From the NCBI GenBank assembly GCA_021738405.1, contig JAIPCC010000009.1:1-46575 (forward strand): a DNA stretch of 46,575 nucleotides. The letters run 5' to 3'. The position numbers and the translations under genes were made by a program. Positions 140-46,154 of this stretch are shown here, in pieces (positions within the stretch are counted from its first letter, which is position 1; each line of letters starts with the position of its first letter). This stretch comes from Crocinitomicaceae bacterium. GTDB taxonomy: Bacteria; Bacteroidota; Bacteroidia; Flavobacteriales_D; Crocinitomicaceae. The notes under the pieces were generated by a model. It searched no databases. It was given only the letters and a program-made list of their open reading frames with translations, and was not told the DNA's origin.

Positions 140-918
140 CAGTTTTTTTCTTGCTTCACTACCCTTTTAGCCACTAAAATACTCACCTCAAAAAGTAAGT
201 AAATCGGAATGGTCACAATAACCTGAGAAATGACGTCTGGCGGTGTAATCACAGCCGCCAAGATGAGGATCACTACAATGGCGTGCTTGCGGTATTTGAT
301 GAGGAAGTCTGGTGTAAAAAGCCCGATTTTGACCAAAAGGAAGGTGACAATCGGAAACAAGAAGAACAAGCCCGTGTAAAAAACAGTGGAGAGAATGGTG
401 CTCATGTAGGAGGCGATCGTCACGTCGGTTTTGATTTCGGGGGTGATCTGAAAAGCCCCAAAGAATTGAACGCTCAATGGCGCCACAATATAATAGCCGA
501 AGAGAATGCCCAAGAAAAAAAGCAAACTGACATAAAATACGATGCCTTTGGCCATGTTTTTTTCATTGCCTTTGAGCCCCGGCTTGATAAAAGCCCAGAG
601 TTGATAAAATATATAAGGGAACGCCAACACGACCCCACCCATAATACTCATCATGAGCGCATAAGAAAATTGACCGGCAAGTGTTGTGCTTTGGAAATCT
701 ACGTTGATTTGATCTACGCAAACGCCAAGGTATTTGCAAAGGAGTTCGAAGGTGATGAAGTGTGGGTCTACCATGTTGAGAAAGACATTCTCCATGATTT
801 CTCGTTGGTAGATCCAAATCACGGTCGAAAAGATGATCACTGCCACTGCTGCCCTGAGCAAGCGCCAGCGGAGTTCTTCTAGATGATCTAAAAATGACAT
901 TGGTTGATCCTCAGACAT
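139..918 (-). CDS. tatC: Sec-independent (twin-arginine) protein translocase subunit TatC
   Basis: TatC is the inner-membrane receptor of the Tat pathway. It binds twin-arginine signal peptides and, with TatA/B-type partners, moves folded proteins to the periplasm. The 259-residue product has the family N-terminal signature FLDHLEELRWRL (residues 9-20), including the signal-peptide-binding Glu15, and about six hydrophobic membrane segments. The periplasmic loop around residues 45-80 carries two cysteines (LCKYLGVCVD), unusual compared with enterobacterial TatC. The ATG at 918 is preceded by TAATTTTA four bases upstream, which supports this start over the internal Met7. No tatA/B gene is adjacent in the window; the downstream gene encodes an exported protein. 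Confidence 0.96.
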   Translation of the reverse strand: MSEDQPMSFLDHLEELRWRLLRAAVAVIIFSTVIWIYQREIMENVFLNMVDPHFITFELLCKYLGVCVDQINVDFQSTTLAGQFSYALMMSIMGGVVLAFPYIFYQLWAFIKPGLKGNEKNMAKGIVFYVSLLFFLGILFGYYIVAPLSVQFFGAFQITPEIKTDVTIASYMSTILSTVFYTGLFFLFPIVTFLLVKIGLFTPDFLIKYRKHAIVVILILAAVITPPDVISQVIVTIPIYLLFEVSILVAKRVVKQEKN

Positions 919-922
919 GCAG

Positions 923-930
923 TAAAATTA
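923..930 (-). promoter_or_regulatory. Putative -7 element for tatC (leaderless spacing)
   Basis: The minus strand reads TAATTTTA, one mismatch from the Bacteroidota TAnnTTTG, followed by CTGC and then the ATG. The four-base spacing matches seven other gene starts in this window. No clear -33 TTTG is visible. Confidence 0.4.
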
Positions 931-971
931 AGGATTTATTCCGGAAATGAGCAATGAAAAGAAGAACGTAA

Positions 972-1000
972 ATTGTTTACGATGTGCTAGCTGAACTTTG
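972..1000 (+). promoter_or_regulatory. Putative promoter for the 103-aa protein
   Basis: ATTG at 972-975 and GAACTTTG at 993-1000 are separated by 17 bases. This is close to the Bacteroidota TTTG / TAnnTTTG promoter, with one mismatch in each element. It would give a leader of about 15 bases. Confidence 0.4.
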
Positions 1001-1020
1001 TATCATCAAAACGAAACGCC

Positions 1021-1332
1021 ATGAATAAAAAATTTGCAATTCAACACATTTGGTTCAACAACCAAGACGCAGAGGTCACACTAGTAGGACTCATGCAAGA
1101 CGACATTTTAGTCTATGAATCTAAGTTGGTCATTAAGATGTCTCAGCTCAATGGCGTGGTATCAAAGCTGCAAAAGACAGCAGGCATTGAAGTGAGCGAG
1201 TACATGTGCAGATTTGAGCTCGGCTTTATTACCGAATACGAAATAAAGTTCCCGACTAGTGTACAATGCTTTTTAGACCTACAAGAAATTATAGGTGCAG
1301 ATCAGAATTTGGTCAGAAGAATTGTAGCTTAA
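1021..1332 (+). CDS. Small cytosolic protein of unknown function (103 aa)
   Basis: I do not recognise the family. The product (MNKKFAIQHIWFNN...) has no signal peptide or membrane segment and alternates polar and hydrophobic residues, like a small alpha/beta or all-beta fold. It contains one Cys in the middle (EYMCRFELG) and another near the C-terminus. It stands alone, with a plausible promoter at 972-1000. Its stop lies five bases from the stop of the convergent lipoprotein gene, leaving no room for a conventional intrinsic terminator. Codon use and a sensible start make it likely to be real. Confidence 0.75.
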   Translation: MNKKFAIQHIWFNNQDAEVTLVGLMQDDILVYESKLVIKMSQLNGVVSKLQKTAGIEVSEYMCRFELGFITEYEIKFPTSVQCFLDLQEIIGADQNLVRRIVA

Positions 1333-1337
1333 GAGGC

Positions 1338-1706
1338 TTATGGCTGGATGAAAACGGTTTCTTCGTTTACTTTTTCGGCCTCAATTTTGATGATGCCTTG
1401 TCCAGTTTTGTTGCCTTTTTGTGCTTTGATATCGAGTACAGCTACACCTGCCTGACCTAATTGATACAATTCGTTGTAATTGAAAGTAGCAAGGCCGTTT
1501 GCGTTCGTGTAAGCGGTGTCAAAAACAGCAACTTGCTGCGGTGTACTTTGTGTGTTGGTACCGTACAATACAACCATGGCGTTTGAAACACTTGCGTTGG
1601 TCTCGTCTTTGACATAAATATGCGCAACGGTATCCATTTTTTTACGACATGCACTTAAAGAGACAAGTGTCGTAGCTGCAACAGCAAATAAAAGAATCTT
1701 TTTCAT
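1338..1706 (-). CDS. Small lipoprotein with one Ig/CarboxypepD_reg-like domain (first of three)
   Basis: 122 residues. The lipoprotein signal peptide ends in the lipobox LSAC (Cys about residue 20) followed by RKK, so it should be lipidated and envelope-anchored. The mature part is a single beta-sandwich-like domain (about residues 27-120): a beta strand VAHIYVKDE, a loop with NAMVVLYG, the motif DTAYTNANGLATFNYNEL, and a C-terminal strand. This resembles transthyretin/CarboxypepD_reg-type folds. It is clearly related in layout to the next two upstream genes: lipobox, V-V/I-L/I strand, D-T/S-x-x-x-N-x-x-G-x-x-x-F-D/N. It lies five bases after its neighbour, so an operon is likely. Its function is unknown. 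Confidence 0.85.
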   Translation of the reverse strand: MKKILLFAVAATTLVSLSACRKKMDTVAHIYVKDETNASVSNAMVVLYGTNTQSTPQQVAVFDTAYTNANGLATFNYNELYQLGQAGVAVLDIKAQKGNKTGQGIIKIEAEKVNEETVFIQP

Positions 1707-1711
1707 GGTGA

Positions 1712-2083
1712 TTAGTTGGGTAAGTAGATGGTCTCGACAGCAGTGGTGTGCACTTTAGCACGGGTATAGCCGTAAGCTATTTTGTTGTTGTATTTGACGA
1801 TGATGTCAAAATAACCCGTTTTGTTGCTTTCGCCTGCTACGGAGAAATATGGATCCATGTCAAATGACGTAAATCCGGAAGAATTGGTAAAAGTGGTGTC
1901 TACGTATGCCAAAGTAGCGGGCGTAGATTGTTGGTCAGCGATGATAATGACCTTAGCGCCGTCGATGAGCTGATTAGAAGAAGAGCGGACAAAGACCTTA
2001 ATAATAGCTGGGTCTGTAGGCTCGCAGCCGCCCAAGATAAAGAGCAGTGAAAGCGCAAAAAAGCTGGTTAGTATAGTTTTCAT
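1712..2083 (-). CDS. Small lipoprotein with one Ig/CarboxypepD_reg-like domain (second of three)
   Basis: The frame can be extended upstream to a TTG at 2101, but the ATG at 2083 gives a clean lipoprotein signal (MKTILTSFFALSLLFILGGC), so I use that start (123 aa). After the lipid-bearing Cys comes EPTDPAIIKVFVRS and then the same single-domain plan as its neighbours, including DTTFTNSSGFTSFDMDPYF. A promoter-like TAAATTTG lies 15 bases upstream. The function is unknown; likely outer-membrane or periplasmic-facing lipoprotein. The three copies probably arose by tandem duplication followed by strong divergence. Confidence 0.82.
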   Translation of the reverse strand: MKTILTSFFALSLLFILGGCEPTDPAIIKVFVRSSSNQLIDGAKVIIIADQQSTPATLAYVDTTFTNSSGFTSFDMDPYFSVAGESNKTGYFDIIVKYNNKIAYGYTRAKVHTTAVETIYLPN

Positions 2084-2098
2084 AGGTTTTGAATGTTT

Positions 2099-2129
2099 CA
2101 AATTTACATTTTAATTTTTGAATTTTAAA
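2099..2129 (-). promoter_or_regulatory. Putative promoter for the second lipoprotein gene
   Basis: On the minus strand TTTA (2129-2126), a 19-base spacer and TAAATTTG (2106-2099) fit the Bacteroidota -33/-7 layout. It would give the second and first lipoprotein genes their own transcript, separate from the third. Confidence 0.45.
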
Positions 2130-2145
2130 ACTTCGAAAGGGGTGT

Positions 2146-2541
2146 TTATTGTATTTGAAGCAGTACTTGATTGCGTTCTTGTTCCGTAATTTCTGCAAGT
2201 GCCTCGCCAGTGAGGCCAAAATAAAAGCCCTTGACTTTGATTTGCATCACGCCGATTTGCCCTGGTTTGTAAAATGAGCTGAGGTCAAAATACGCTTTGC
2301 CTGAAGCATTTGATACCGAGCTGTCTTGCACGGCGATCGGATTGTGTGCGGTGTCTGTAGGCTCTGCCACAAGCCACACCTTGGCGTCGGGAAGAATGGT
2401 GCCATTTGCCGTGACCACAGTTACCTCTAGGGTAGTGGGTGGCGTTTCTTTACACGACACCAAAAAAAACACCAAAGCAAGCAGCGATAGAAATGCAGTG
2501 GCAGCGATAGTGTTCAGCTTTTTTTTCTTGTACATTTGCAT
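2146..2541 (-). CDS. Small lipoprotein with one Ig/CarboxypepD_reg-like domain (third of three)
   Basis: About 131 residues from the ATG at 2541; an ATG at 2535 is equally possible, and the TTG at 2550 is less likely. A lysine-rich n-region (MYKKKKLN) precedes a hydrophobic core and the lipobox LVSC. The mature domain has a strand LEVTVVTANG, then LPDAKVWLVAEP, then the shared motif DSSVSNASGKAYFDLSSFYKPGQ, where it aligns best with the first copy (YKPGQIGV versus YQLGQAGV). The gene is divergent from pheS, with about 65 bases between the starts. The role is unknown. Confidence 0.82.
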   Translation of the reverse strand: MQMYKKKKLNTIAATAFLSLLALVFFLVSCKETPPTTLEVTVVTANGTILPDAKVWLVAEPTDTAHNPIAVQDSSVSNASGKAYFDLSSFYKPGQIGVMQIKVKGFYFGLTGEALAEITEQERNQVLLQIQ

Positions 2542-2558
2542 GAAGACCAAGATTTTTC

Positions 2559-2571
2559 GTTGTTAAACAAC
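2559..2571. repeat. 13-bp perfect palindrome between lipoprotein operon and pheS
   Basis: GTTGTT-A-AACAAC is a perfect inverted repeat in the divergent intergenic region, 18 bases upstream of the lipoprotein start and 38 upstream of pheS. It could be an operator for either transcript; short palindromes also occur by chance. Confidence 0.35.
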
Positions 2572-2608
2572 AAGAAGGGTCAAAAGGTTACAACAGAACC
2601 GCTTAAAA

Positions 2609-3628
2609 ATGAATATTGAAGTTTTATCTCTCGAATTAAATCAAGTTCAGCTCCAAGACGAACAAGCGCTCGAACAATTCCGCATCCGTTTTTTGGGTTC
2701 AAAGAACGTACTCAAAGATTTGTATGCCGCCATTAAAGACATTCCCAACGATCAAAAGCGCGCTTATGGTCAGCAGGTCAATGCGCTCAAAGAACGCGCC
2801 GAACAAATCTACCACGAAGCCAAAGCAGCTTTAACCCAAACCCAAACCACCAGCGCTGCCGAAGACCTCAGCAGACCCGCTGGCGACCCTAAAATCGGTG
2901 CGCATCATCCACTTTCGCTGATCCGCCGTGAAATCATCGAAATATTCAACCGTGTTGGTTTTGTGGTGTCTGAAGGCCCAGAAATCGAAGACGACTGGCA
3001 CAATTTCAGTGCGCTCAACTTTCCGCCTGAGCACCCTGCCCGCGATATGCAAGACACCTTTTTTATCTCAAAAGGGGAAAACGAGCTTGCGCTGCGCACG
3101 CACACAAGTAGCGTTCAAGTGCGCGTCATGGAAGACCAAGCACCCCCAATCAGAACCATTTCTCCGGGCCGCGTGTACCGCAACGAAGCCATTTCGGCGC
3201 GTGCGCATTGCTTTTTCCATCAGGTTGAAGGGCTCTACATAGATAAAGGCGTCTCCTTTGCAGACCTCAAACAAACCTTATTATACTTTGCGCAGGCACT
3301 TTTTGGTCCTCAAACCCAAATTCGCATGCGCCCATCTTATTTTCCTTTTACTGAACCCAGTGCCGAGGTCGATGTATCTTGCTCGCTTTGCAACGCCAAA
3401 GGTTGCAATGTCTGTAAGTATACTGGTTGGCTCGAAATCATGGGTTGCGGTATGGTAGATCCAAACGTGCTCGAAGCTTGCGGCATTGACCCAGAAGTCT
3501 ATACTGGTTTTGCCTTCGGTATGGGCGTGGAGCGCATTGCACAGCTCAAGTACCGCGTCACCGATCTGCGTTTGTATTCTGAAAACGACGTGCGTTTCTT
3601 GCGTCAATTTAAACCTGGTATGGCATGA
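2609..3628 (+). CDS. pheS: Phenylalanine--tRNA ligase alpha subunit
   Basis: Catalytic subunit of the cytosolic (alpha-beta)2 enzyme that charges tRNA-Phe. The 339-residue length is normal. Residues 1-85 form the N-terminal coiled-coil arm. Class II motif 2 is visible as GRVYRNEAISARAH...FFHQVEG, and motif 3 as FGMGVERIAQLKYRVTDLR. A Cys cluster (CSLCNAKGCNVC, about residues 258-269) sits before GWLEIMGCGMV; it could bind zinc and is absent from the E. coli enzyme. pheT is not in the window, so the subunits are encoded apart. The next gene starts inside its stop codon (ATGA). Confidence 0.97.
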   Translation: MNIEVLSLELNQVQLQDEQALEQFRIRFLGSKNVLKDLYAAIKDIPNDQKRAYGQQVNALKERAEQIYHEAKAALTQTQTTSAAEDLSRPAGDPKIGAHHPLSLIRREIIEIFNRVGFVVSEGPEIEDDWHNFSALNFPPEHPARDMQDTFFISKGENELALRTHTSSVQVRVMEDQAPPIRTISPGRVYRNEAISARAHCFFHQVEGLYIDKGVSFADLKQTLLYFAQALFGPQTQIRMRPSYFPFTEPSAEVDVSCSLCNAKGCNVCKYTGWLEIMGCGMVDPNVLEACGIDPEVYTGFAFGMGVERIAQLKYRVTDLRLYSENDVRFLRQFKPGMA

Positions 3629-3966
3629 GTTGGTTACATTTCACAAGTCCTAACCATTGGGAAGAACTCTTGAGTGCTTCTGAGCAAGCGCCTCAACTGA
3701 TCTTTAAGCACAGCACGCGCTGTTCTATTTCTTCTATGGTCCTGAACCGTTTTGAAGCCAGTGAATTGTATCGCTCAGCTGCCCTGCCATGTTGGTTCCT
3801 CGATCTCATTGCCTTTCGGGACTTATCCAACCTGATTGCCGCCGAAACGCAAGTTTGGCATGAGTCGCCGCAGTGTATCGTCATCGACAAAAGCAAGGTT
3901 ATTTACGCAGAAAGCCATGGTACAATAGACGCCAAGGCCATTCAACAATTGATCCTCGACAAATGA
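3625..3966 (+). CDS. ytxJ: YtxJ-type monothiol bacilliredoxin (DUF2847)
   Basis: 113 residues with a thioredoxin-like fold. The family motif F-K-H-S-x-x-C-x-I-S-x-x-x-x-x-x-F-E is present as FKHSTRCSISSMVLNRFE, with a single active-site Cys (about residue 36), which points to a monothiol mechanism. The position before I-S is Ser here, usually Pro. Members are linked to bacillithiol-dependent protein redox repair, so this gene suggests, but does not prove, that the organism makes bacillithiol. It overlaps pheS and the following cyclotransferase gene by four bases each (ATGA), so all three are probably co-translated. Confidence 0.88.
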   Translation: MSWLHFTSPNHWEELLSASEQAPQLIFKHSTRCSISSMVLNRFEASELYRSAALPCWFLDLIAFRDLSNLIAAETQVWHESPQCIVIDKSKVIYAESHGTIDAKAIQQLILDK

Positions 3967-5042: not shown

Positions 5043-5093
5043 CGCAAATGCAAAACCTGTTTCGTTCACACGCACTTTCTCCAAATTTCTAAG

Positions 5094-5101
5094 CATCTTT
5101 G
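5094..5101 (+). promoter_or_regulatory. Putative -7 element upstream of the PASTA gene
   Basis: CATCTTTG, one mismatch from TAnnTTTG, ends 22 bases before the ATG at 5124. No good -33 partner is seen. If active it would separate the PASTA/T9SS/rluD genes from the pheS transcript. Confidence 0.35.
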
Positions 5102-5123
5102 TAATACATATACCGAATTCTTT

Positions 5124-5945: not shown

Positions 5946-5948
5946 GAT

Positions 5949-9218: not shown

Positions 9219-9223
9219 CTTTC

Positions 9224-9255: not shown

Positions 9256-11397
9256 ATGAAACAACTATTCATTGCCGCTATTTTAACGCTCTTCACAGCA
9301 TCGGTAAGCTTTTCACAAAACGCTCCCGATCCAAAATTCGTGCGCGAAGCCAACGAAGTCTTCATTTCTGGCAATTACTTTGAAGCCATTAACGTCTGTC
9401 AAGATGCCTACAAAAAGTTAGGTGCTCGCGGTTCTTTGCGTCAAAAAGGCGACATGGCCTTTAAAATTGCGGAATCTTACCGCGCACTCGAAATCTTCGA
9501 CAAAGCAAACGATTGGTACGGTACCTGTATCGAACTCAAGTATTTCGATGTTGTCCCTGAAATATATTACTACAAAGGCGACATGCAGCGCATGATGAAA
9601 GACTTTGACAACGCCATCAAAAGCTACCGCGAATACAAGCGCATTGCGCCTAAGTCTCGTACCAAAGAGGTAGACGACGCTATCATGGCTTGTGAAAAAT
9701 ACAAAGACTTTGATGAGTTCGAAACTTCCAAATTGGTCGTGAAGCCAGAAGTCAAAATCAATACCAAGCAAATGGATATGGCGCCTACCTTCATGGACAA
9801 AAAAGGTAAAGTCATTGTTTTCAGCTCTTCGCGTGACGAAAGCACTGGCGCTCAACGCGACCCTATTTCTGGTGAAAAATACATGGACCTCTACATCGCG
9901 GAATACGATGTGAACGGCAACCCAACAAATGTAAAATCCCTCGACACTAAAGGTGTGGTCAACACCACCCAAAACGAAGGTTCAGCTACTTTTGATTCAA
10001 AGCGCAAAAACATCTACTTCACGCGTTGCCCTAACGCAGAAAAAATGGATCTAGGCTGTGAAATCTGGACTGCTGTCATGAACGGCGAAGATTTCGATGA
10101 TCCGCGCAAAATCTCTTTAACAATCTCTGATACCATTTCTGTTGGGCACCCATGCTTATCTCCAGACGACCAAATGCTCATTTTTGCATCAGACATGAAG
10201 CAAAGCCCGAACGGCGAAAAATCTTTTGGCGGCCGCGACCTCTGGTATGTGAATTTTGACAAACGCACCAAAATGTGGGATTCCGTTCCACACAACATGG
10301 GCGCCATGTTCAATACCGCTGGTAACGAACTCTTCCCATCTATCGGACCAAATGGCCAACTCTATTTTGCATCTGACGGCTTACCAGGAATCGGGGGTCT
10401 TGACCTTTTTGTTGCAGAGCAAGTAGCTGGCGAAAACAAATGGACTGCTGTCAAAAACATGGGTTACCCTTTCAACTCACAAGGTAACGACTACGCTATG
10501 TCTGATTTCGACGGCAAGTCTGGTTTCTTTACCTCTGAGCGCAAAACCACTAGTAACCAAGAATACGCACCAGATATCTGGAGCTTCACTACACCTCCAA
10601 ACCTTTTTGATTTGCGCGTGACCGTCTATGAGTCAGGTAAAAAATCTAAGAAATTAGCTGGTGCAAAAGTTTACGTAACGGTTTCCGATGGCACGAGCTG
10701 GGAAGGTGTTACCGACGCAAAAGGTAAAATCATCTGGAAAGAGCGTCCAGACAAAAAAGGACGTTATATCTTAACAGGTAAAGAATACACCCTCAAAGCA
10801 GAGAAAGAAGGTTTTTACGAAGACAAAAAAGGCGCTAAAATCTCTACACTTGGAATGGACCAAAGCCAAAGCTTCTTGATCGAGATGCCGTTGTTGCCTG
10901 TTGGCATCATCCGCACTCCTGAAATTCGCTACGTATTTGACCAATGGGTGTTTATCAACGACGCAACTTGTATGTCCTTAGACTCCCTTAAGTTCTTAGA
11001 CAGCATGCTCAAAGAATACCCGAACATCACCATCGACTTGTTCTCACACACCGATGCACGTGGTGGCGACGCGCGCAACCAAATGCTTTCTGAAAACCGT
11101 GCAAAAGCAGTTTACAAGCACCTCGTTGAAACATGTGGCATCGATCCACGCCGTATTCGCCCTGTAGGTCGCGGCGAGGCTGAGCCTGCAACTTGGGTAG
11201 ACGAATCCGGTAAAACAGTCGTGCTCACTGAAGATTATATCAATCAGTTCAAGACCACTGACAAAGCGAAGTTTGAAATGCTGCATACGATCAACCGCCG
11301 CACCACTGCCAAGATCACCAGCACCACCTTTGATCCGAACACGGCACCGCCGGCAGACCCAGAATACCGCAAGTTTAAACAACTTCCAAGATTATAA
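9256..11397 (+). CDS. PorE-like OmpA-family protein (TPR, beta-propeller, CarboxypepD_reg-like, OmpA)
   Basis: 713 residues. The signal peptide ends SVSFS with Gln at +1. The domain order is TPR repeats (about 25-135), a PD40/WD40-like propeller (about 165-460, with repeated SPDDQMLIFAS- and GPNGQLYFASDG-type blades), a CarboxypepD_reg-like domain (about 470-545), and an OmpA C-terminal peptidoglycan-binding domain. The last has HTDARG...NQMLSENRAKAV, with the usual Asp and Arg present. This order matches PorE, a T9SS accessory protein, but the same architecture occurs in several Bacteroidota paralogues and this copy has no lipobox, so PorE itself is not certain. It is monocistronic, with its own promoter and terminator; codon use suggests high expression. 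Confidence 0.88.
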   Translation: MKQLFIAAILTLFTASVSFSQNAPDPKFVREANEVFISGNYFEAINVCQDAYKKLGARGSLRQKGDMAFKIAESYRALEIFDKANDWYGTCIELKYFDVVPEIYYYKGDMQRMMKDFDNAIKSYREYKRIAPKSRTKEVDDAIMACEKYKDFDEFETSKLVVKPEVKINTKQMDMAPTFMDKKGKVIVFSSSRDESTGAQRDPISGEKYMDLYIAEYDVNGNPTNVKSLDTKGVVNTTQNEGSATFDSKRKNIYFTRCPNAEKMDLGCEIWTAVMNGEDFDDPRKISLTISDTISVGHPCLSPDDQMLIFASDMKQSPNGEKSFGGRDLWYVNFDKRTKMWDSVPHNMGAMFNTAGNELFPSIGPNGQLYFASDGLPGIGGLDLFVAEQVAGENKWTAVKNMGYPFNSQGNDYAMSDFDGKSGFFTSERKTTSNQEYAPDIWSFTTPPNLFDLRVTVYESGKKSKKLAGAKVYVTVSDGTSWEGVTDAKGKIIWKERPDKKGRYILTGKEYTLKAEKEGFYEDKKGAKISTLGMDQSQSFLIEMPLLPVGIIRTPEIRYVFDQWVFINDATCMSLDSLKFLDSMLKEYPNITIDLFSHTDARGGDARNQMLSENRAKAVYKHLVETCGIDPRRIRPVGRGEAEPATWVDESGKTVVLTEDYINQFKTTDKAKFEMLHTINRRTTAKITSTTFDPNTAPPADPEYRKFKQLPRL

Positions 11398-11401
11398 AAA
11401 G

Positions 11402-11430
11402 AAAGGCGTCGGAAGGCGCCTTTTGTTTTG
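11402..11430 (+). terminator. Intrinsic terminator after the OmpA-family gene
   Basis: AAAGGCG and CGCCTTT form a 7-bp stem around an 8-base loop, followed by TTGTTTTG. It begins five bases after the stop codon. Confidence 0.8.
11423..11430 (+). promoter_or_regulatory. Possible -7 element for the PspC-like gene, inside the terminator tail
   Basis: TTGTTTTG (one mismatch from TAnnTTTG) is followed by AGCC and the ATG at 11435. The spacing equals that at seven other starts here. The T-rich terminator tail could produce this match by chance. Confidence 0.25.
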
Positions 11431-11434
11431 AGCC

Positions 11435-11674
11435 ATGAGACGCCTTTTACAAAAAATCGTATTCTTCTTTGAGTTGCAGTCGTTTGGCGTCTGCGAATGG
11501 TGGGCGCGCAGATTGGGCATCCGCACCAACAAAGTACGTTTAGGCTTCATCTATCTTAGTTTCATAGGCTTGGGCTCTCCTGTCCTGCTTTACCTCATTA
11601 TGGCCTGGATCCTCGAGCACAAACATTATTTTAAGTTTCAAGCAAAGCGCAAACAATCTATCTGGGATTTATGA
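11435..11674 (+). CDS. PspC-domain small membrane protein
   Basis: 79 residues matching the short Bacteroidota PspC-like family: a basic amphipathic N-terminus (MRRLLQKIVFFFELQSFGVCEWWARRLGI), then one or two membrane segments (VRLGFIYLSFIGLGSPVLLY and LIMAWILE) and a basic tail. PspC proteins take part in envelope-stress sensing in proteobacteria; in Bacteroidota the stand-alone short form has no settled role. It starts four bases past the terminator of the OmpA-family gene and overlaps the following reductase gene by four bases (ATGA). Confidence 0.8.
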   Translation: MRRLLQKIVFFFELQSFGVCEWWARRLGIRTNKVRLGFIYLSFIGLGSPVLLYLIMAWILEHKHYFKFQAKRKQSIWDL

Positions 11675-15585: not shown

Positions 15586-16467
15586 ATGAAAAAACCATTT
15601 GTCATTTTTTCCAAGCGTTTAGAGCGCGGCACCATGCTATGGTTGTGTGTTTGTGTGGTGGTTATTTTTGCGCCTCGAATAGAGGCGTATTTTGTGAATC
15701 CAGACTTGAGCTACACCTGGCAGCACAAAATGGAGCAAAAAGTGCAGCGGGCTTTTCAAATGCCTTCGAAATCTACCGCTAGGCGTTCATATTCAAAGCT
15801 TTGGAAGCGCTGTAATCCAGCGGGTCTTACTGCGGCCGATTGGCAAAGGTTGGGCCTGAGTCCGAAGCAAGCTGCTTCCTTGCTGCGCTATAAAGATAAA
15901 TACGGGCTGCATTCGCTGTCTCAAATGCAACATATACGCGTACTGCCATCAGAATTGCTCAATCAAATCTCGGATTCCTTGTATTTTGAACCCACTCCAA
16001 GTGCTAAATCAAGCGTTGTAAATCAGGAAGAAAATGGCTTACCCGACAAAAGGCAAGAAACTAAGGGGCAATTCGGAAAGTTGGATATCAATTCAGCTAC
16101 TGAAGTGATGTTAGTGGCCTTACCGGGCCTTGGTGCATATTCCGCGGCAAAGATCATTGCTTATCGCGAGCGTTTAGGTGGGTTTTTAGCGCTTGATCAA
16201 CTGCAAGAAATTCAAGGGATTAAGCCAGAAATACTGCAAAAAGTACTGCCTTATTTGGTGCTAGAACAAGGCGTCAAACGCATGTCGATCAATGAAGTGA
16301 GCTACGAAACACTCAAACAACATCCGTATTTAACTTGGAATCAGGCCAATTCCATCATAAAAATGCGCAAACAAAAGGGTGCGTTTAAAGAAATAAATGA
16401 GCTCAAAGAATCGGTATTAATTGACGACGATACATACAAAAAACTCTTACCTTATGTATCTTTGTGA
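15586..16467 (+). CDS. Membrane-anchored helix-hairpin-helix (ComEA-like) protein
   Basis: 293 residues. An N-terminal membrane segment (about 18-31, MLWLCVCVVVIFAP) is followed by a basic linker and three related DNA-binding-type modules: a degenerate one near GLSPKQAASLLRYKDKYGL, a ComEA-type helix-hairpin-helix starting near residue 165 (LDINSATEVMLVALPGLG, then IIAYRERLGGF), and another starting near 232 (MSINEVSYETLKQHPYL, then IIKMRKQKGAF). ComEA-like proteins bind DNA at the cell surface during natural uptake. No comEC or pilus genes are nearby, so competence is only a possibility. Its last codons contain the promoter of apt. Confidence 0.85.
   Translation: MKKPFVIFSKRLERGTMLWLCVCVVVIFAPRIEAYFVNPDLSYTWQHKMEQKVQRAFQMPSKSTARRSYSKLWKRCNPAGLTAADWQRLGLSPKQAASLLRYKDKYGLHSLSQMQHIRVLPSELLNQISDSLYFEPTPSAKSSVVNQEENGLPDKRQETKGQFGKLDINSATEVMLVALPGLGAYSAAKIIAYRERLGGFLALDQLQEIQGIKPEILQKVLPYLVLEQGVKRMSINEVSYETLKQHPYLTWNQANSIIKMRKQKGAFKEINELKESVLIDDDTYKKLLPYVSL
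16457..16464 (+). promoter_or_regulatory. -7 element for apt (leaderless spacing)
   Basis: A perfect TATCTTTG inside the last codons of the HhH gene, then TGAC and the apt ATG at 16469. The stop codon TGA of the upstream gene lies between promoter and start. No clear -33. Confidence 0.55.
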
Positions 16468-18211: not shown

Positions 18212-18242
18212 TTTGTAGAATTGAATTTCTCTCGTATCTTTG
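18212..18242 (+). promoter_or_regulatory. Consensus promoter for rpsU
   Basis: TTTG (18212-18215), exactly 19 bases, then TATCTTTG (18235-18242): a perfect match to the Bacteroidota sigma-ABfr promoter. It is the strongest promoter I can read in the window. Confidence 0.8.
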
Positions 18243-18275
18243 CGACCCTAGTTTATAACAAAGAAATTAAAGCAT

Positions 18276-18467
18276 ATGTTGATCATTCCAATTAAAGAAG
18301 GCGAGAACATCGAACGCGCATTGAAGAAGTACAAGAAAAAGTACGAGAAAACCAATGTAATGAAACAATTGCGTGCCCGAAGAGAATTCGTGAAGCCGTC
18401 TATTTCTAATCGCCAGGAAGTGATTCGCGCAGCTTACAAACAAAGAATGCAAAGTCAGCAATTGTAA
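18276..18467 (+). CDS. rpsU: 30S ribosomal protein S21
   Basis: 63 residues, basic, with the S21 pattern (MLIIPIKEGENIERALKKYKKKYEK, then LRARREF, KPS, RR/RQ). S21 binds the 30S platform near the 3' end of 16S rRNA and aids initiation. The gene has a consensus promoter and is closed by a strong UUCG-loop terminator, so it is a monocistronic, probably highly expressed unit. In Bacteroidota S21 has been linked to the general absence of Shine-Dalgarno use (established knowledge in outline). Confidence 0.97.
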   Translation: MLIIPIKEGENIERALKKYKKKYEKTNVMKQLRARREFVKPSISNRQEVIRAAYKQRMQSQQL

Positions 18468-22728: not shown

Positions 22729-22742
22729 ATTTCGTACTTTCG
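22711..22742 (+). promoter_or_regulatory. Putative promoter for the glycosyltransferase gene (leaderless spacing)
   Basis: TTTC (22711-22714), a 20-base spacer, TACTTTCG (22735-22742, one mismatch), then TAGC and the ATG at 22747. Confidence 0.5.
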
Positions 22743-23748: not shown

Positions 23749-24263
23749 GCGTCGTCTAGAAATAATTTTTTGAGTTCAGTGGCCTCAGAGGGCTTCATTT
23801 TACCGGCTAGGATGAGTGCCAATTGTTTGCGTCTGAGTGCGCCTTCATAGCGTGTCTTCTCTTCTTCTGTTTCCGGGATGAGTTCGGGCACCTGAATCGG
23901 ATTTCCATTCTGGTCTACAGCTACAAATGTGTAAATGGCCTCGTTGCATTTTTCGCGTTGTCCGGTAACGGCATCTTCGACAAATACATCTAAAAAGACC
24001 TCCATTGATGAATTAAATGCTCTAGATACTTTAGCCTCCAGGGTTACAATTGAGGCGTGGTTGATGGGTTTTTGAAAAGAGACGTTATTGACTGAAGCCG
24101 TGACTACAACACGTTTGGAGTGGCGGTGTGCAGAGACACTTGCAATGACGTCCATCCAAGCAAGGAGTTGGCCTCCGAAGAGATTGCCGAGCGTATTGGT
24201 ATCGTTGGGCAAAACAATTTTGGTTGTAATGGCAAGGGTGTCGATGGCTTTATTGGCTTTCAT
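23742..24263 (-). CDS. Acyl-CoA thioesterase, hotdog fold (YciA/BACH type)
   Basis: Hydrolyses acyl-CoA to free acid and CoA. 173 residues: one hotdog domain with the family motif NTLGNLFGGQLLAWMD (catalytic Asp at its end), then ASVSAHRHSKRVVVTASVNNVSF, and a charged helical tail rich in Glu and Lys. This is the single-domain form of the BACH/YciA group with broad substrate range. It is divergent from the metalloprotease gene. TAACTTTG lies four bases before its ATG, supporting this start. It converges with the glycosyltransferase gene with no terminator between. Confidence 0.93.
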   Translation of the reverse strand: MKANKAIDTLAITTKIVLPNDTNTLGNLFGGQLLAWMDVIASVSAHRHSKRVVVTASVNNVSFQKPINHASIVTLEAKVSRAFNSSMEVFLDVFVEDAVTGQREKCNEAIYTFVAVDQNGNPIQVPELIPETEEEKTRYEGALRRKQLALILAGKMKPSEATELKKLFLDDAH

Positions 24264-24267: not shown

Positions 24268-24275
24268 CAAAGTTA
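24268..24275 (-). promoter_or_regulatory. -7 element for the thioesterase gene (leaderless spacing)
   Basis: The minus strand reads TAACTTTG, a perfect TAnnTTTG, then TTCT and the ATG at 24263. No -33 TTTG at the usual distance. Confidence 0.55.
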
Positions 24276-26587: not shown

Positions 26588-28408
26588 TCAAATCAATTCA
26601 TCCTCGTTCTCACTGAAAAAATCAAATAGGAGTTTCGCTTTTGCGGCTCCTATTTTTTTTGTGATCAGCTCTGGTGCAGCTTCTTTCATTTTCGTCAAAG
26701 ATTTGAACTCATGGTAAAGCGCCTCTATTGTTTTTGGCCCCAAACCCTTCACTTGATCAAGGGCTGAGCCGACTGCATTTTTACTGCGGCGGTTGCGGTG
26801 ATGGCTGAGGCCAAAACGGTGTGCTTCGTCGCGGAGTTGCTGTACTAACTTTAATGCGAGCGAGCGACGGTCTAAAATCAGTGAACGCGAGAAGCCAGGC
26901 TTGTAAAGCTCTTCTAATCTTTTGGCCAAACCAACGAGTTTGAGTTCGTGCTGTAAACCAATTTCCTCAATAGCTTCTAACGCTGCGCCTAGCTGCCCTT
27001 TGCCGCCATCAATGATGATGAGGTCGGGTAGAGGCTGCCCTTCGGCTTTTAAGCGGCTGTAGCGCCTGCCAACAGCTTCTTTCATGGTGCTGAAGTCATC
27101 TGGCCCAACCACAGTTTTGACATTGAAGTGACGGTAGTCTGCTTTACTCGGTACACCATGCTTAAAAACAACACAGGCCGAGACCGGATTGGTGCCTTGT
27201 AAGTTTGAGTTATCGAAACATTCAATGTATAGCGGCGGCTTAGATAAGCCAAGTGCACTCTGCAGTTCTAAAACGGCCTGCATCGGTGCGTTTTGAACAG
27301 CTGTACTCTTGTTCATGGCAGCTTTTCGGGCCTGAAGTTGGGCATGGCGAACGTTGTCCATGGCCATCTCGAGTAATTGTTTTTTTTCGCCAATTTTGGG
27401 AAACAAACTTTTGGCGTCTGCAAGTAAAAGCGGATCCTTGAGGCCCACCACAATTTCTTTCGAACTGCTTTCAAAATGACCCCGAAGTTGTGGTATAATC
27501 TGCCTGTATAAAGTTTCAAGCGGCACATCTAGCGGATCGGACACCTTTGAAGTGTAAGCATGGACAATACTTCCTTCACAAATAACAAGGTAACTGAGCC
27601 AGGCATCAGGTTGGGCTTTTTCGACATAACACACGTCAAAATTTTGCGTGTGATCCGATACCATCATTGATTTGGATTGGTATTTTCCGAGTGCATCTAT
27701 AAGTTCTTTACAGCGTTGTGCAGCTTCAAATGCCTGGGTGCTCGCATGCGCCAGCATGTCTTTTTTGAGTTGCTGGATCAAAGAAAAGTTTTTGCCTTCT
27801 AATAAGAGGCGAATGGTTTGCAAAGTTTGGTCATACGCAACGCTGGATTGCATGCTTTCACAAGGCCCCGCGCATTTGCCAATATGATATTCGAGACAAA
27901 CTTTGTATTTGCGCTGTTCGAGTTTCTGCGTCCGCAAGTCGAGTGCACAAGTTCTGATCTGAAAAAGCTCGCGAATGAGTGTCAGCAATTGATGCATCTG
28001 CTTGACGTTGGGGTAGGGGCCATAATAGGTAGACCCGTCATTGAATTTTCGTCTGGTCGGAAAAACCCGCGGAAAAGCTTCATTTTTGATGACGATCCAA
28101 GGATAGGTTTTGTCGTCTTTGAGCAAGACGTTATAACGTGGCTTGTAACTCTTGATGAGGTTGTTCTCGAGCAATAAGGCATCGAGTTCGTTTTGCACGA
28201 CTGTAAAGCGCAAATCGCAAATGAGCTTGACCAAAGTGCGCGTTTTGCCGTCTAAATGATCTTTTTGAAAGTAGGAGCTGACGCGTTTTTTAAGGTCGAT
28301 AGCCTTGCCTACATAGATGATTGTTCCATTTTGATCCAAAAACTGATACACTCCCGGGTTGTGCGGTAGCGTATTCACTTTATTGGCCAGTTGGTCTTTG
28401 GAAATCAT
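26588..28408 (-). CDS. uvrC: UvrABC excinuclease subunit C
   Basis: Makes both incisions in nucleotide-excision repair. 606 residues, a normal length. The N-terminal GIY-YIG nuclease domain reads NPGVYQFLDQNGTIIYVGKA (residues 18-37). A Cys cluster follows (CALDLR...CLEYHIGKCAGPC). The C-terminal RNase H-like nuclease is seen at YIECFDNSNLQGTNPVSACVV and IIDGGKGQLGAALE, and a helix-hairpin-helix at VKGLGPKTIEALY. It is divergent from nadC across 54 bases. TAATTTTG lies four bases before the ATG, which fixes the start. Confidence 0.97.
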   Translation of the reverse strand: MISKDQLANKVNTLPHNPGVYQFLDQNGTIIYVGKAIDLKKRVSSYFQKDHLDGKTRTLVKLICDLRFTVVQNELDALLLENNLIKSYKPRYNVLLKDDKTYPWIVIKNEAFPRVFPTRRKFNDGSTYYGPYPNVKQMHQLLTLIRELFQIRTCALDLRTQKLEQRKYKVCLEYHIGKCAGPCESMQSSVAYDQTLQTIRLLLEGKNFSLIQQLKKDMLAHASTQAFEAAQRCKELIDALGKYQSKSMMVSDHTQNFDVCYVEKAQPDAWLSYLVICEGSIVHAYTSKVSDPLDVPLETLYRQIIPQLRGHFESSSKEIVVGLKDPLLLADAKSLFPKIGEKKQLLEMAMDNVRHAQLQARKAAMNKSTAVQNAPMQAVLELQSALGLSKPPLYIECFDNSNLQGTNPVSACVVFKHGVPSKADYRHFNVKTVVGPDDFSTMKEAVGRRYSRLKAEGQPLPDLIIIDGGKGQLGAALEAIEEIGLQHELKLVGLAKRLEELYKPGFSRSLILDRRSLALKLVQQLRDEAHRFGLSHHRNRRSKNAVGSALDQVKGLGPKTIEALYHEFKSLTKMKEAAPELITKKIGAAKAKLLFDFFSENEDELI

Positions 28409-28412
28409 GGCT

Positions 28413-28420
28413 CAAAATTA
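28413..28420 (-). promoter_or_regulatory. -7 element for uvrC (leaderless spacing)
   Basis: The minus strand reads TAATTTTG, a perfect TAnnTTTG, then AGCC and the ATG at 28408. It faces away from the nadC promoter within the same 54-base gap. Confidence 0.55.
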
Positions 28421-28425
28421 GAAAC

Positions 28426-28458
28426 ATTGTGCGGAATATCTCGCTCTTCTTATCTTTG
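28426..28458 (+). promoter_or_regulatory. Promoter for nadC (leaderless spacing)
   Basis: ATTG (28426-28429), a 21-base spacer, TATCTTTG (28451-28458, perfect), then TTGC and the ATG at 28463. Confidence 0.6.
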
Positions 28459-28462
28459 TTGC

Positions 28463-29299
28463 ATGCTAGATGAATTTATCAAATCGGCCTTACAGGAAGA
28501 TATCCAAGATGGCGACCACTCTTCAATGGCTTGTGTGCCTGTAACTGCCAACTCAAAAGCGATTTTATTGCTCAAAGAAGCCGGTGTGTTGGCGGGTATG
28601 CAAGTGGCCCAAAGAATTTGTGAAATTTACGACCCAAGCCTGCAAATGACCACCTATTTAAAGGATGGCGACCGCGTCAATTATGGCCAGATTGCATTTA
28701 CTTTGGAAGGATCAGCACGTTCTATTTTAGCGGTTGAGCGCTTGTTGTTGAATTGCATGCAGCACATGAGCGGCGTGGCTTCCAAAACTGCGCATTATGT
28801 CGACCTCATTGCAGGTACAAATTGCACTTTATTAGATACCCGTAAAACCACCCCCGGACTGCGCTTTTTGGATAAATATGCAGTAAAAATTGGCGGCGGC
28901 TCTAATCATCGTTTTGGGCTCTACGACATGATTATGCTCAAAGACAACCACATCGACTACGCTGGTGGCCTGAGTGCTGCCCTCGAGCGCACGCACACTT
29001 ACCTTGAGGAGCAAAAATTGGATCTGAAAGTCGAGGTTGAAGTTCGGTCAATGGATGAATTAACGCAGCTTTTAGCTATTGCTCAACCCTACGACCGCAT
29101 CATGCTTGATAATTTTACGCCAGGGGCGCTCAAAGTAGCCCTAACGCTCATTCCCTCAACGGTCGAGACAGAAGCATCAGGAGGTATTACCGAAGAAACA
29201 ATTAGGGCTTATGCCGAAACGGGCGTACAATTTATATCTGTAGGGGCGCTTACACATTCAGTGAAGGCACTAGACATGAGCCTCAAGGCGCAGCTTTAA
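28463..29299 (+). CDS. nadC: Nicotinate-nucleotide pyrophosphorylase (quinolinate phosphoribosyltransferase)
   Basis: Makes nicotinate mononucleotide from quinolinate and PRPP in NAD synthesis. 278 residues. Family motifs: EDIQDGDHSS near the N-terminus, ERLLLNCMQHMSGVAS, TRKTTPGLRFLDKYAVKIGGG (quoted in two overlapping parts: TRKTTPGLRFLDKY and KYAVKIGGG), HRFGLYDMIMLKDNH, IMLDNF and EASGGI. I start at 28463 because the family begins there and a perfect -7 element lies four bases before; a longer frame from 28391 overlaps the uvrC start. nadA and nadB are not in the window. The 3' end overlaps the convergent gene by 17 bases. Confidence 0.97.
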   Translation: MLDEFIKSALQEDIQDGDHSSMACVPVTANSKAILLLKEAGVLAGMQVAQRICEIYDPSLQMTTYLKDGDRVNYGQIAFTLEGSARSILAVERLLLNCMQHMSGVASKTAHYVDLIAGTNCTLLDTRKTTPGLRFLDKYAVKIGGGSNHRFGLYDMIMLKDNHIDYAGGLSAALERTHTYLEEQKLDLKVEVEVRSMDELTQLLAIAQPYDRIMLDNFTPGALKVALTLIPSTVETEASGGITEETIRAYAETGVQFISVGALTHSVKALDMSLKAQL

Positions 29300-39076: not shown

Positions 39077-39081
39077 TTTTC

Positions 39082-39089: not shown

Positions 39090-39096
39090 TTAGGTG

Positions 39097-39131: not shown

Positions 39132-39141
39132 CCATAAAACG

Positions 39142-40019: not shown

Positions 40020-40026
40020 TCATCAG

Positions 40027-41010: not shown

Positions 41011-41029
41011 TCAGAAGGCAATTATTTAA

Positions 41030-43262: not shown

Positions 43263-45181
43263 CTGGGCGTAATTGGTTCGGTGCGTAGTTCGATGATCTC
43301 AATGCGTCTTTCTAAAGATGCATCTTTGGAATAAACAGAATTGCGTTGGTCGTAGTAGTTATCGCTCACGTCTTTGTTGGCTTTGTATTCACCCATTGGC
43401 ACTTCAATAAATTGCAAGCGCAGTGGGGTGGTCAGCATATAAGGTGCAAATTTACCACCATCTATCTCTTCAAAATAATTTTTAATGGCAGAAATGCGCC
43501 TATTTGTCAAATGTACGTTATAATCTGACTTGGCGAGCGGACTTGCAAATCCTTGCACCATGATACTGACCTGCTGACCCGACTGAAGTGCCTGCCAAAC
43601 CTGTTCTCTAAATAGGGCGAGGTTTTGCATCCCGAAGTCTACTTCTTGATCAAAAAACGCAAGCAAAGATTGAGCTTGTTGCACAGCCGCTAAAGAATCA
43701 CGGCCTTCGCTTACTTTTTGCAAGTATAGTGGGTATTGGCTTTTATATTTGGTATAGGTTTCTTCGTAGGAAAGTTCAGTAAAATCTGAGGTAGTTTTAG
43801 GGTTGGGATGGTCGTTTTCGAAATAGAGTCTGATGGGTAGTTCAACAATTTGGATGGCTGTTGATTCCTTCTTTTCTTCTTGCGGCTTAGGGCGCGGCAA
43901 ATATTGGTAAAAGACATCACTGCAACAGGTGGGATGAGAGGCATAAAGGCTGCCAATGCGGTTTGAACTCAAATAGGCAGTATCAGCTTCACAAAAGAAA
44001 TAGAGCTCATTGGCCGCACTATTCCACGGCAAGCCGAGGTTGATGGGCGGGCCAAATGTACCATCGGTTTGGAGGTTGGAATAAAATATATCGTAGCCAC
44101 CGAATCCGGCATGCCAGGTACTCGAGAAGTAAAGGCGTTTAAAAAGTGGATCAAACCAAGGCGATACCTCATTTTCAAAAGAATTCAGCCCAGATAAGTT
44201 GATAGGATTTTGAAGTGTTCCGTCTTGTGCAAATGTGGTCATCCAAAGGTCAAGATCTCCATTTGTTCTCGCAGACGTAGCAGCATAAATGAGTTTGAGT
44301 TGCCCGTTTAGTTCAAAAAGATGTGGCATGCTTTGGTAAGTAGCGATTGGAAGGGAGAGCAGCGCATTTGTATCGAGGTGCCAGCTATTTTCTTGCCTGA
44401 CCACTTTCATGATGCGGCATTTCAGGTTATTGGCTGTTCTGCTGCAGGCACTACACAGCGCAAAACTGCTGTCGGGCGCAAGCGTGAAGTTGCCGTACTC
44501 CTCTTGCGGACGCAGGCCTTTGATGAACACCTGATTTTTTGTTGAGGCCGGGAATTGATAAAGTTGGATGGTATATTGGCTACTGAAAATTTGTTCTTCG
44601 TCTGCGGCAGTAGAATCGGCTCTTAAGGAGCTAAAAATGAGGGTGTCGTTTAAAAAGAGGTGGCCAAATTCGGTATCGACGGTATTGACCGGATGCTGCA
44701 GTAAAGCGCTGTTTTCTTCGGCGCTGATGAATTTGAGTTGCTTAAGTACCCAATTGCAAGCCATAATTTCTTGTTCGGCCTTGAGGTAGGCACTATTTTT
44801 TTTGTCTTCGGCAAAAAACTTTTTGGCTTCTTTGAATTGTGCCAGAGCCTCTTTGTAGCGCCCTTGTTGCTTGAGCATGAGTGCATAATTGAGCTGCGCT
44901 TGCGGATATTTTTGCCCATCTGGATCTTGCTCAAATACCTTAAGAAAATAAGTGGCTGCGGTTTTGTAATCTTTGAATTGCTGATTGGCGCTTGCGATTT
45001 TCCAGTGTAGATCGAGGTTGTTGGGTTCCAATTCAAGTGCTTGATCATAGTAGCGCAAGGCTTCAATGTAGTCGAGTGCTTGCACTTGGGTATCGGCATG
45101 GGCAATGAGCCGCTGCAATTGCTTTTGCGCACCTAGCGGCGTGGCGAGCAACAGCAAATAAATCAGATATAGTCTGGGCAT
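43259..45181 (-). CDS. TPR / beta-propeller / OmpA-like envelope protein
   Basis: 640 residues. The signal peptide ends ATPLGA with Gln at +1. TPR repeats (about 20-150, for example ALRYYDQALELEPNN) are followed by a PD40-type propeller (about 170-420, with FDPLFKRLYFSSTWHAGFGGYD) and an OmpA-like C-terminal domain (about 430-640). In that domain the segment near residue 545 reads GFASPLAKSDYNVHLTNRR: the Tyr-Asn and Arg of the OmpA motif are kept, but the usual HTD is replaced by FAS. Peptidoglycan binding may therefore differ from classical OmpA. It is paired with a PorP/SprF-like gene, an arrangement seen with T9SS surface systems, but no large adhesin gene adjoins it. Confidence 0.87.
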   Translation of the reverse strand: MPRLYLIYLLLLATPLGAQKQLQRLIAHADTQVQALDYIEALRYYDQALELEPNNLDLHWKIASANQQFKDYKTAATYFLKVFEQDPDGQKYPQAQLNYALMLKQQGRYKEALAQFKEAKKFFAEDKKNSAYLKAEQEIMACNWVLKQLKFISAEENSALLQHPVNTVDTEFGHLFLNDTLIFSSLRADSTAADEEQIFSSQYTIQLYQFPASTKNQVFIKGLRPQEEYGNFTLAPDSSFALCSACSRTANNLKCRIMKVVRQENSWHLDTNALLSLPIATYQSMPHLFELNGQLKLIYAATSARTNGDLDLWMTTFAQDGTLQNPINLSGLNSFENEVSPWFDPLFKRLYFSSTWHAGFGGYDIFYSNLQTDGTFGPPINLGLPWNSAANELYFFCEADTAYLSSNRIGSLYASHPTCCSDVFYQYLPRPKPQEEKKESTAIQIVELPIRLYFENDHPNPKTTSDFTELSYEETYTKYKSQYPLYLQKVSEGRDSLAAVQQAQSLLAFFDQEVDFGMQNLALFREQVWQALQSGQQVSIMVQGFASPLAKSDYNVHLTNRRISAIKNYFEEIDGGKFAPYMLTTPLRLQFIEVPMGEYKANKDVSDNYYDQRNSVYSKDASLERRIEIIELRTEPITPR

Positions 45182-46140
45182 ATGCGGTATTGCAATTGTG
45201 GTGGTTGAAATTTACTGAAAACGTAGCGTACACTCAATTCAAATGCACCACGTCCTCTACTAGCCGGAACAAGTGAAGAATAATTGAAGTCGTAGGAAAT
45301 ACCGGTATAGAGCGGCCCGCGGGCGAGCCCAAACTGCAGGCAAAAAGCATCTTTGGTTCGCCACCATAGTGCTGAACTCAGTGTGATGTCGTCTTTTGAG
45401 GAGAGTAAATAACCAGCACTAGAACCGATGGTCAAAGCGCGATACGGCCCCTGTAAATTGAGCTGAAGACTCGGTTCAAAAAACAATTCAGGCGTGTACT
45501 GATAGCGCAGTTGTCCAAATAAATTGACCCTGATATCTCGTTTCGTGTTGTCGGTAAAGAAGCTCTGATTGGGCCGCGTGAGGTTAAAAATACTCAGCCC
45601 ACTTTGTATGGAGATTTGTTTGTTGAGCGCGTATTGGTGGATAAGTCCTAAGCCGAGCATGGGTTTGGTCATAGACGCGGTCTGAAAAAACTCATTGGTG
45701 GGCGCATTTGGATCAAAAATATAGCCGTTGTATTGGTTGTCAAAGTAGAAGGCACTGCTGTTGAGTTGCCGTTGATTGAAACCCAACTGAATGGCGGCCC
45801 TGAGTTGCTGTTGCTTATTGAGGGCAATTGGCCGACACAAACTCAGTTGCATTTCGTTGGTCTGAAACTTGCCGTCGCCAACTTGGTCGTGAAAATAATT
45901 GACTGAGATGCCCCATTGTTTCCATTTGGCATCGGCAGCAAGAGCAGTGGTTTGAAAAGGAATACTGACGCTGCGCCACTGTGTGCGGTAGTTGGCAGTT
46001 AGGCGGAGGTCTTCTTTGAAATGACCGGCGTGAGCAGGGTTGAGAAAGATGGGGTTGTTGTTGAATTGCGTCCAATGGATGTCTTGGGCAAACACTGGTG
46101 CTGCCCACAATAAAAATAGAATCCTGCAAAACTCCTTCAC
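45163..46140 (-). CDS. PorP/SprF-family outer-membrane protein
   Basis: 325 residues starting with GTG at 46140; the signal peptide ends AAPVFA with Gln at +1. The mature N-terminus DIHWTQFNNNPIFLNPAHAGHF is the hallmark of PorP/SprF proteins (H-x-x-Q-F, then P-x-x-L-N-P-A-x-x-G), followed by a beta-barrel with terminal aromatic strand SVRYVFSKF. PorP is a T9SS component, and SprF-type paralogues help secrete particular surface adhesins. The GTG start is supported by TAACTTCG four bases upstream. The gene overlaps the OmpA-like gene by 19 bases. It is probably a paralogue dedicated to a specific cargo (inference). Confidence 0.9.
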   Translation of the reverse strand: MKEFCRILFLLWAAPVFAQDIHWTQFNNNPIFLNPAHAGHFKEDLRLTANYRTQWRSVSIPFQTTALAADAKWKQWGISVNYFHDQVGDGKFQTNEMQLSLCRPIALNKQQQLRAAIQLGFNQRQLNSSAFYFDNQYNGYIFDPNAPTNEFFQTASMTKPMLGLGLIHQYALNKQISIQSGLSIFNLTRPNQSFFTDNTKRDIRVNLFGQLRYQYTPELFFEPSLQLNLQGPYRALTIGSSAGYLLSSKDDITLSSALWWRTKDAFCLQFGLARGPLYTGISYDFNYSSLVPASRGRGAFELSVRYVFSKFQPPQLQYRICPDYI

Positions 46141-46154
46141 GTAACGAAGTTACG
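46140..46154. repeat. Palindrome over the porP-like promoter and start
   Basis: CGTAAC-GAA-GTTACG is a perfect 6-bp inverted repeat with a 3-base spacer. It covers the -7 element and ends on the first base of the GTG start codon. It could be an operator or a hairpin. Confidence 0.4.
46145..46152 (-). promoter_or_regulatory. -7 element for the porP-like gene (leaderless spacing)
   Basis: The minus strand reads TAACTTCG, one mismatch from TAnnTTTG, then TTAC and the GTG at 46140. Confidence 0.45.

Follow-up and report, generated by a model that had tools for sequence, protein, structure and literature searches.

The -7 element of Bacteroidota primary-sigma (sigma ABfr) promoters, TAnnTTTG, is reported at positions -12 to -5 in Flavobacterium psychrophilum (PMC9723704), and in F. 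johnsoniae it is separated from the transcription start by a gap of 4 or 5 nucleotides (nt), with G rare at its free positions (PMC6847099). According to published transcript maps, leaderless genes are already known in the phylum at frequencies of 3.7–13%: leaderless mRNAs make up 5.5% in F. psychrophilum (PMC9723704), leaders of ≤10 nt 13% in F. johnsoniae (PMC6847099), and leaders under 10 nt ~3.7% in Bacteroides thetaiotaomicron (PMC7366714). Of 37 Bacteroidetes/Chlorobi genomes surveyed for Pribnow-like boxes, one was reported to have leaderless genes, with the warning that other promoter types would escape the survey (PMC3160421); base frequencies in another study pointed to leaderless signals in Bacteroidetes but left them unresolved (PMC5397173). 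In leaderless genes of Actinobacteria and Deinococcus-Thermus, a Pribnow-like box lies ~12 bp before the start and likewise abuts the start codon, but it differs from TAnnTTTG (PMC3160421). Here, we analyze a 46,575-nt stretch of a Crocinitomicaceae genome (hereafter, the window; assembly GCA_021738405.1, contig JAIPCC010000009.1, positions 1–46,575), in which TAnnTTTG-type elements stand exactly 4 nt before several start codons. The genome shares its phylum and its TAnnTTTG element with the two Flavobacterium species and B. thetaiotaomicron, and the published position of the element predicts this spacing if a gene is leaderless. Based on sequence evidence, many genes of this genome are very probably driven by a primary-sigma promoter that abuts the start codon, which would yield leaderless mRNAs.

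The original prediction listed eight window genes with a -7 element at this spacing, and all eight motifs are present: those of apt, the thioesterase gene, uvrC, and nadC are exact, and those of tatC, pspC, the glycosyltransferase 9 (GT9) gene, and porP carry one mismatch. The names given to these genes agree with Pfam assignments (TatC, PspC, phosphoribosyltransferase, glycosyltransferase 9, 4HBT thioesterase, UvrC, quinolinate phosphoribosyltransferase, and PorP/SprF); scans of the window for Rfam families and for tRNAs returned no matches. When genes are ignored, the 15-mer formed by element, gap, and start codon is not enriched in the window (18 matches with ≤1 mismatch, 18.3 expected in shuffles). 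When tied to starts, however, a site with ≤1 mismatch lies at exactly 4 nt in 7 of 40 cases (0.33 expected, P ~4e-8), so that the earlier claim of a spacing beyond chance holds once gene starts are taken into account. These 40 are the 41 called starts minus one close to the window end, and porP is not among the seven because the gene caller picked another start there.

The distance histogram proposed in the original prediction was built from a genome sample of 766 kb (35% of the 2.16-Mb assembly, which comprises 91 contigs) with 643 genes, called with our own simple caller that is based on codon usage and blind to upstream sequence, starts near stretch ends being dropped. It has a sharp peak at the predicted position: exact TAnnTTTG was found at 0–2 nt in no gene, at 3 nt in five, at 4 nt in 33, at 5 nt in six, and at 6 nt in eight, whereas dinucleotide shuffles gave ~0.35 sites per position and a mean of 0.3 at 4 nt. 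Cumulatively, 52 sites lie at 3–6 nt, 14 at 7–13 nt, and 98 at 14–60 nt. Two further controls, the reversed pattern and the same element with a 10-nt gap, were counted across the whole assembly, where the 15-mer TANNTTTGNNNNATG occurs 125 times, the reversed pattern 23 times, and the 10-nt version 30 times. A core promoter therefore stands close to the start codon, at a constant spacing, more often than chance predicts, as expected of leaderless genes.

The 33 exact spacing-4 sites also have the character of promoters. G occurs at the two free positions of the -7 element in 0/33 and 2/33 sites, giving the form TAHHTTTG, although this rarity discriminates little by itself because copies inside genes are similarly low (3/21 and 1/21). 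A box at -20 to -17 is AT-rich (102/132 bases) compared to the flanks (390/660, P 8e-5) and to in-gene copies (46/88, P 1e-4); the same box is seen in leadered promoters of this genome and corresponds to the AT-rich box near -18 of sigma ABfr promoters, which the sites also resemble in their TAnnTTTG core and rarity of G. The base preceding ATG is C in 24 of the 33 sites compared to 31% elsewhere (P 3e-6), an excess that would be expected if this position were -1 and the A were +1. The element positions published for the two Flavobacterium species likewise place +1 at the A of ATG or no more than one base from it. The sharp peak at 4 nt, joined by independent promoter features in this genome, gives the leaderless class good support at the sequence level.

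The start codons themselves fit such a class. Among the 33 genes, 31 begin with ATG and two with GTG, i.e., mostly AUG; 29 lack any in-frame ATG, GTG, or TTG further upstream, and 31 lack any in-frame ATG there. Orthologs of nadC (26 hits) and the thioesterase gene (22 hits) align from residue 1, and several Pfam domains begin close to the start (RuvX at residue 3, UPF0093 at 4, DUF4286 at 1, and GATase at 6). A Pfam family was assigned in 29 of the 33 genes, mainly enzymes that act in metabolism, DNA repair, or RNA modification (dUTPase, MnmE, MazG, GMP synthase, polyprenyl synthase, lumazine-binding protein, PurT, Sua5, RuvX, dehydroquinate synthase, proline dehydrogenase, GatC, UvrC, and NadC), with no ribosomal proteins or elongation factors among them.

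In the mechanism that we favor, the -7 element of an ordinary primary-sigma promoter would occupy positions -12 to -5, counted from the start codon. Transcription would thus begin at the A of ATG, in some cases one or two bases ahead of it, and the ribosome would take the resulting mRNA by its 5'-terminal start codon. The alternative that survives best, although we regard it as improbable, is that the promoters are real and transcription begins a few bases away, producing either a very short leader or a cut ATG with a later start codon in use. With the 5-nt gap that is part of the published range, an element at spacing 4 would start transcription on the T of ATG, and tatC orthologs mostly have spacings of 7–12 nt; yet the C before ATG fits position -1 with +1 at the A, the peak falls at 4 with 3, 5, and 6 rare, and the alignment of nadC and thioesterase orthologs from residue 1 speaks against a later start codon.

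As the original prediction had proposed, two classes of start coexist. A second hump in the histogram (38 sites at 14–18 nt) corresponds to a leadered class, in which transcription would start ~10 or more nt upstream and leaders are rich in A (among genes with an element 7–60 nt upstream, A makes up 51–66% at -9 to -12 and 55% at -6), with the 14 sites at 7–13 nt forming a trough that is not empty. The window example of this class is rpsU (Table 1). Its leader of ~30 nt (window 18235–18290), upstream of the gene for bS21, has no GGAGG-like core; a strong Shine-Dalgarno sequence at rpsU is reported for ~80% of Flavobacteriales.

The spacing of 4–5 nt is maintained in orthologs of three window genes. 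At nadC, the exact element lies at 4 nt in 25 of 26 orthologs and at 5 nt in the remaining one; at the thioesterase gene (22 orthologs), it is exact at 4 nt in 13 and at 5 nt in seven, with one mismatch at 5 nt in two. At uvrC (35 loci), it is exact at 4 nt in 13 and at 5 nt in three, has one mismatch at 4 nt in 12, and is missing from seven, among them the Dysgonomonas loci. The 12 one-mismatch uvrC sites all read TAATTTTA (final G to A) and are kept in one group of relatives (L062–L070, L072–L074), so that this weaker -7 form is itself conserved. For the GT9 gene, TACnTTCG was found at 4 nt in 11 of 22 orthologs; one further match is off the locus, and the 10 more distant orthologs have no start near the projected position.

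Table 1. Elements and regions discussed in the text. Window positions refer to the 46,575-nt stretch; positions with a locus prefix refer to other loci of the genome sample.
Feature	Element	Position	Strand	Relation to start codon or remark
uvrC -7 element	TAATTTTG	28413..28420	-	4 nt before ATG 28406-28408
nadC -7 element	TATCTTTG	28451..28458	+	4 nt before ATG 28463-28465
uvrC/nadC divergent region		28409..28462	.	54 nt, holds both -7 elements
4HBT thioesterase -7 element	TAACTTTG	24268..24275	-	4 nt before ATG 24261-24263
Glycosyltransferase 9 -7-like element	TACTTTCG	22735..22742	+	4 nt before ATG 22747
tatC -7-like element	TAATTTTA	923..930	-	4 nt before ATG 916-918
porP-like -7-like element	TAACTTCG	46145..46152	-	4 nt before GTG 46138-46140
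apt element	TATCTTTG	16457..16464	+	before ATG 16469; doubtful promoter
pspC terminator hairpin and T-tract	TTGTTTTG	11401..11430	+	supposed -7 element at 11423-11430 is its tail
rpsU, leadered-class example	TATCTTTG	18235..18242	+	33 nt before ATG 18276
Dehydroquinate synthase/proline dehydrogenase		L101:3759-3793	divergent	exact elements
Unnamed/Methyltransf_4		L102:4782-4817	divergent	exact elements
Deaminase/colicin-V-like		L033:6493-6528	divergent	one mismatch each side
Alpha-amylase/UPF0029		L038:14505-14541	divergent	one mismatch each side

Back-to-back genes provide a structural argument. The genome sample contains seven divergent pairs with starts less than 45 nt apart, of which three have no leaderless-type elements and four have them on both sides (Table 1). 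In these four, the starts are 35–37 nt apart and the layout is CAT-N4-CAAAnnTA-N11..13-TAnnTTTG-N4-ATG (start ATG or GTG), which leaves no room for leaders and thus argues for leaderless mRNAs; similarly, ordinary leaders plus two promoters would not fit in the uvrC/nadC region. Elements on both sides become rarer with distance: they occur in 4 of 11 pairs at 45–59 nt (including uvrC/nadC; six more have one side), 1 of 20 at 60–99 nt, and 0 of 37 at 100–250 nt. In the sample of a genome from another family of the order (G376), one of five pairs under 45 nt has both elements, and no divergent pairs under 45 nt were present in the samples of another genus of the family (G345), another member of the class (G154), and Dysgonomonas.

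The same pairs bear on a second alternative, which we rate as very improbable, namely that the TTTG...ATG spacing serves as a context for translation start within leadered mRNAs and involves no promoter. Base context near the start is reported to tune translation in F. johnsoniae; here, however, A-rich context belongs to the leadered class, the AT-rich promoter box is present, and 23 of the 33 spacing-4 sites precede divergently oriented genes rather than lying inside operons (88 of 481 among genes without the motif). Divergent starts 35–37 nt apart would, moreover, not accommodate leaders plus promoters.

As a motif count, the case for two-sided promoters is weaker. Motif pairs with a start on both sides within 60 nt number seven in the divergent and nine in the convergent (control) orientation of the genome sample, i.e., there is no excess, and only the clustering at 11–13 nt differs (four divergent versus one convergent at 10–14 nt). 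Divergent exact pairs 6–34 nt apart outnumber reversed ones in the whole genome (54 versus 12) and in three others (G461: 52/16; G463: 36/6; G465: 58/14), are ~2-fold in excess in G457 and G459, and reach 0.9–1.4-fold in the remaining seven (13 genomes in all). The spacing of divergent exact -7 pairs shows a possible 10-bp periodicity, as if both elements lay on one helix face (P 0.0004–0.006 in G461, based on 50 of its 52 pairs among the matches listed; 0.02–0.05 in G463, on 25 of 36 pairs likewise; 0.08–0.18 in the genome sample), a pattern that is suggestive only, given that four periods were tried and that these genomes are close kin and not independent.

Several points weigh against the leaderless interpretation or narrow it. 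The start positions come from our own simple caller. Unlike usual sigma ABfr promoters, the spacing-4 sites sit directly on start codons and have no evident -33 TTTG element (TTG in the expected stretch in 7/33 leaderless-type, 35/112 leadered, and 6/21 in-gene sites). Outside this genome, the promoter features are uneven: in G376, C precedes ATG in 10 of 13 sites versus 57% (P 0.25, not significant) and the 13 sites have no AT-rich box (29% AT), and C precedes ATG in only two of seven sites in G345 and one of five in G154. Among the window genes, tatC keeps its element close while the spacing drifts (29 loci: 4 nt in four; 3, 5, or 6 nt in four; 7–12 nt in 16; 13–40 nt in one; none in four), and porP has spacing 4 with GTG in only two of 30 loci (the window and G041), spacing 5 in one, no element in 21, and no start found in six. 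As leaderless gene, apt is doubtful: the element is exact at 4 nt in four of 27 loci, exact at 5 nt in one, with one mismatch at 5 nt in one, farther away in five, and missing from 16, and because the window copy coincides with the final codons of the gene before it, it may be a chance match or a recent internal promoter. (The locus sets of tatC, porP, apt, and pspC include the window's own locus.)

The pspC promoter was rejected, because TTGTTTTG is the T-tract of an intrinsic terminator. A GC-rich hairpin (11401–11424; -15 kcal/mol, equally stable in 4 of 200 shuffles) begins 3 nt past the stop of the preceding gene at 11397 and is followed by a T-rich tail; the hairpin is conserved in near relatives, whose tails vary, and an element of this kind is missing from 21 of 30 genus loci. 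A consensus scan reported this terminator on the minus strand only. The pspC start codon directly adjoins the T-tract of the preceding gene's terminator (window 11401–11435). The leaderless interpretation is well backed for the class, wrong for pspC, doubtful for apt, and at tatC and porP bound to a spacing found almost only in near kin. Chance, terminator tails, or coding sequence as the source of the sites, true of pspC, possibly of apt, and in line with the gene-blind window count, is contradicted for the class by the 33 of 643 starts versus 0.3 and by the footprints, and deserves hardly any credence.

The leaderless-type share, defined as exact elements at 3–6 nt relative to those at 7–60 nt with background removed, was estimated in five genomes, the samples other than that of the window's genome being small. 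It is 37% in the window's genome (52 and 112 sites), 57% in G376 (16 and 14 sites), 32% in G345 (9 and 33 sites), and 14% in G154 (8 and 69 sites). Dysgonomonas capnocytophagoides (G430) has 0 sites at 3–6 nt and 39 at 7–60 nt, a weak comparison because these 39 do not exceed the far background; the value of 0.56 returned by the share formula is meaningless there, and the raw counts are used instead. Per 100 genes, the excess at spacing 4 (≤1 mismatch) is 8.7 in the window's genome, 13.0 in G376, 3.6 in G345, 0.3 in G154, and -0.1 in Dysgonomonas. A mixture estimate of the leaderless share of all genes (13% in the window's genome and 28% in G376) was set aside, as column-permuted controls gave 6–35% and 9–26%. 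In F. psychrophilum, F. johnsoniae, and B. thetaiotaomicron, leaderless mRNAs are described as a minor class, whereas the leaderless type accounts here for 37% of the exact elements within 60 nt of a start, a sequence-derived share that is not directly comparable with measured ones.

Of 120 genomes of the order, 117 show more elements with a 4-nt than with a 10-nt gap, at least 2-fold more in 66, and the ratio differs among families (3.6 in family f2 with 30 genomes, 2.3 in the window's family f1 with 31, and 1.1 in f54 with two). Of 24 genomes reached via the named loci, some of which appear to duplicate genomes of the order set, 19 have a ratio of at least 2 and five, including Dysgonomonas, one of 1.06–1.45. 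Among 296 genomes of the phylum, the spacing-4 excess over the reversed pattern ranges from strong (family f24, nine genomes: 360/117) through slight (f6, 29 genomes: 3351/2536) to a deficit (e.g., G060 of f17: 1/10). In f2 and f24, the 4-nt excess is stronger than in the window's family. The nearest named relatives are metagenome-assembled genomes filed under Crocinitomicaceae, Cryomorphaceae, or Flavobacteriales; three loci labelled Chryseobacterium gleum or Sphingomonadales (L051, L060, L065) hold close orthologs and look mislabelled.

We found no report of leaderless genes in this family in the open-access literature to which our search was confined (subscription papers lay outside it), and as far as the searchable literature goes, the weight that the leaderless class appears to have in this lineage is new. 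More tentatively, in a proposal that may well prove wrong, leaderless expression could be a major, inherited mode of gene start in this Bacteroidota order, overlooked as surveys sought Pribnow boxes while Flavobacterium and Bacteroides supplied the transcript maps. In the window's close relatives, it might have allowed minimal two-headed promoters that fit into the 35–37 bp separating two start codons. The -7 element of each gene would lie some two helix turns upstream of its partner's, and the polymerase for one gene would exclude or assist that for the other.

How Bacteroidota genes are started is of open interest, and most of the work on it comes from Flavobacterium and Bacteroides. In the genome analyzed here, roughly one-third of the recognizable housekeeping promoters are predicted to leave no leader, a mode reported to be uncommon in the phylum. 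According to one report, ribosomes of Bacteroidota keep their anti-Shine-Dalgarno tail hidden (PMC9976891); the 16S rRNA gene was not found in the window's assembly (G000), which is rated 99.7% complete. The lineage is a natural system for asking how ribosomes with a hidden anti-Shine-Dalgarno select start codons that have no 5' context. The rule TAnnTTTG-N4-ATG yields candidates from sequence alone and can improve the annotation of starts and promoters, and the back-to-back pairs make promoter interference testable.

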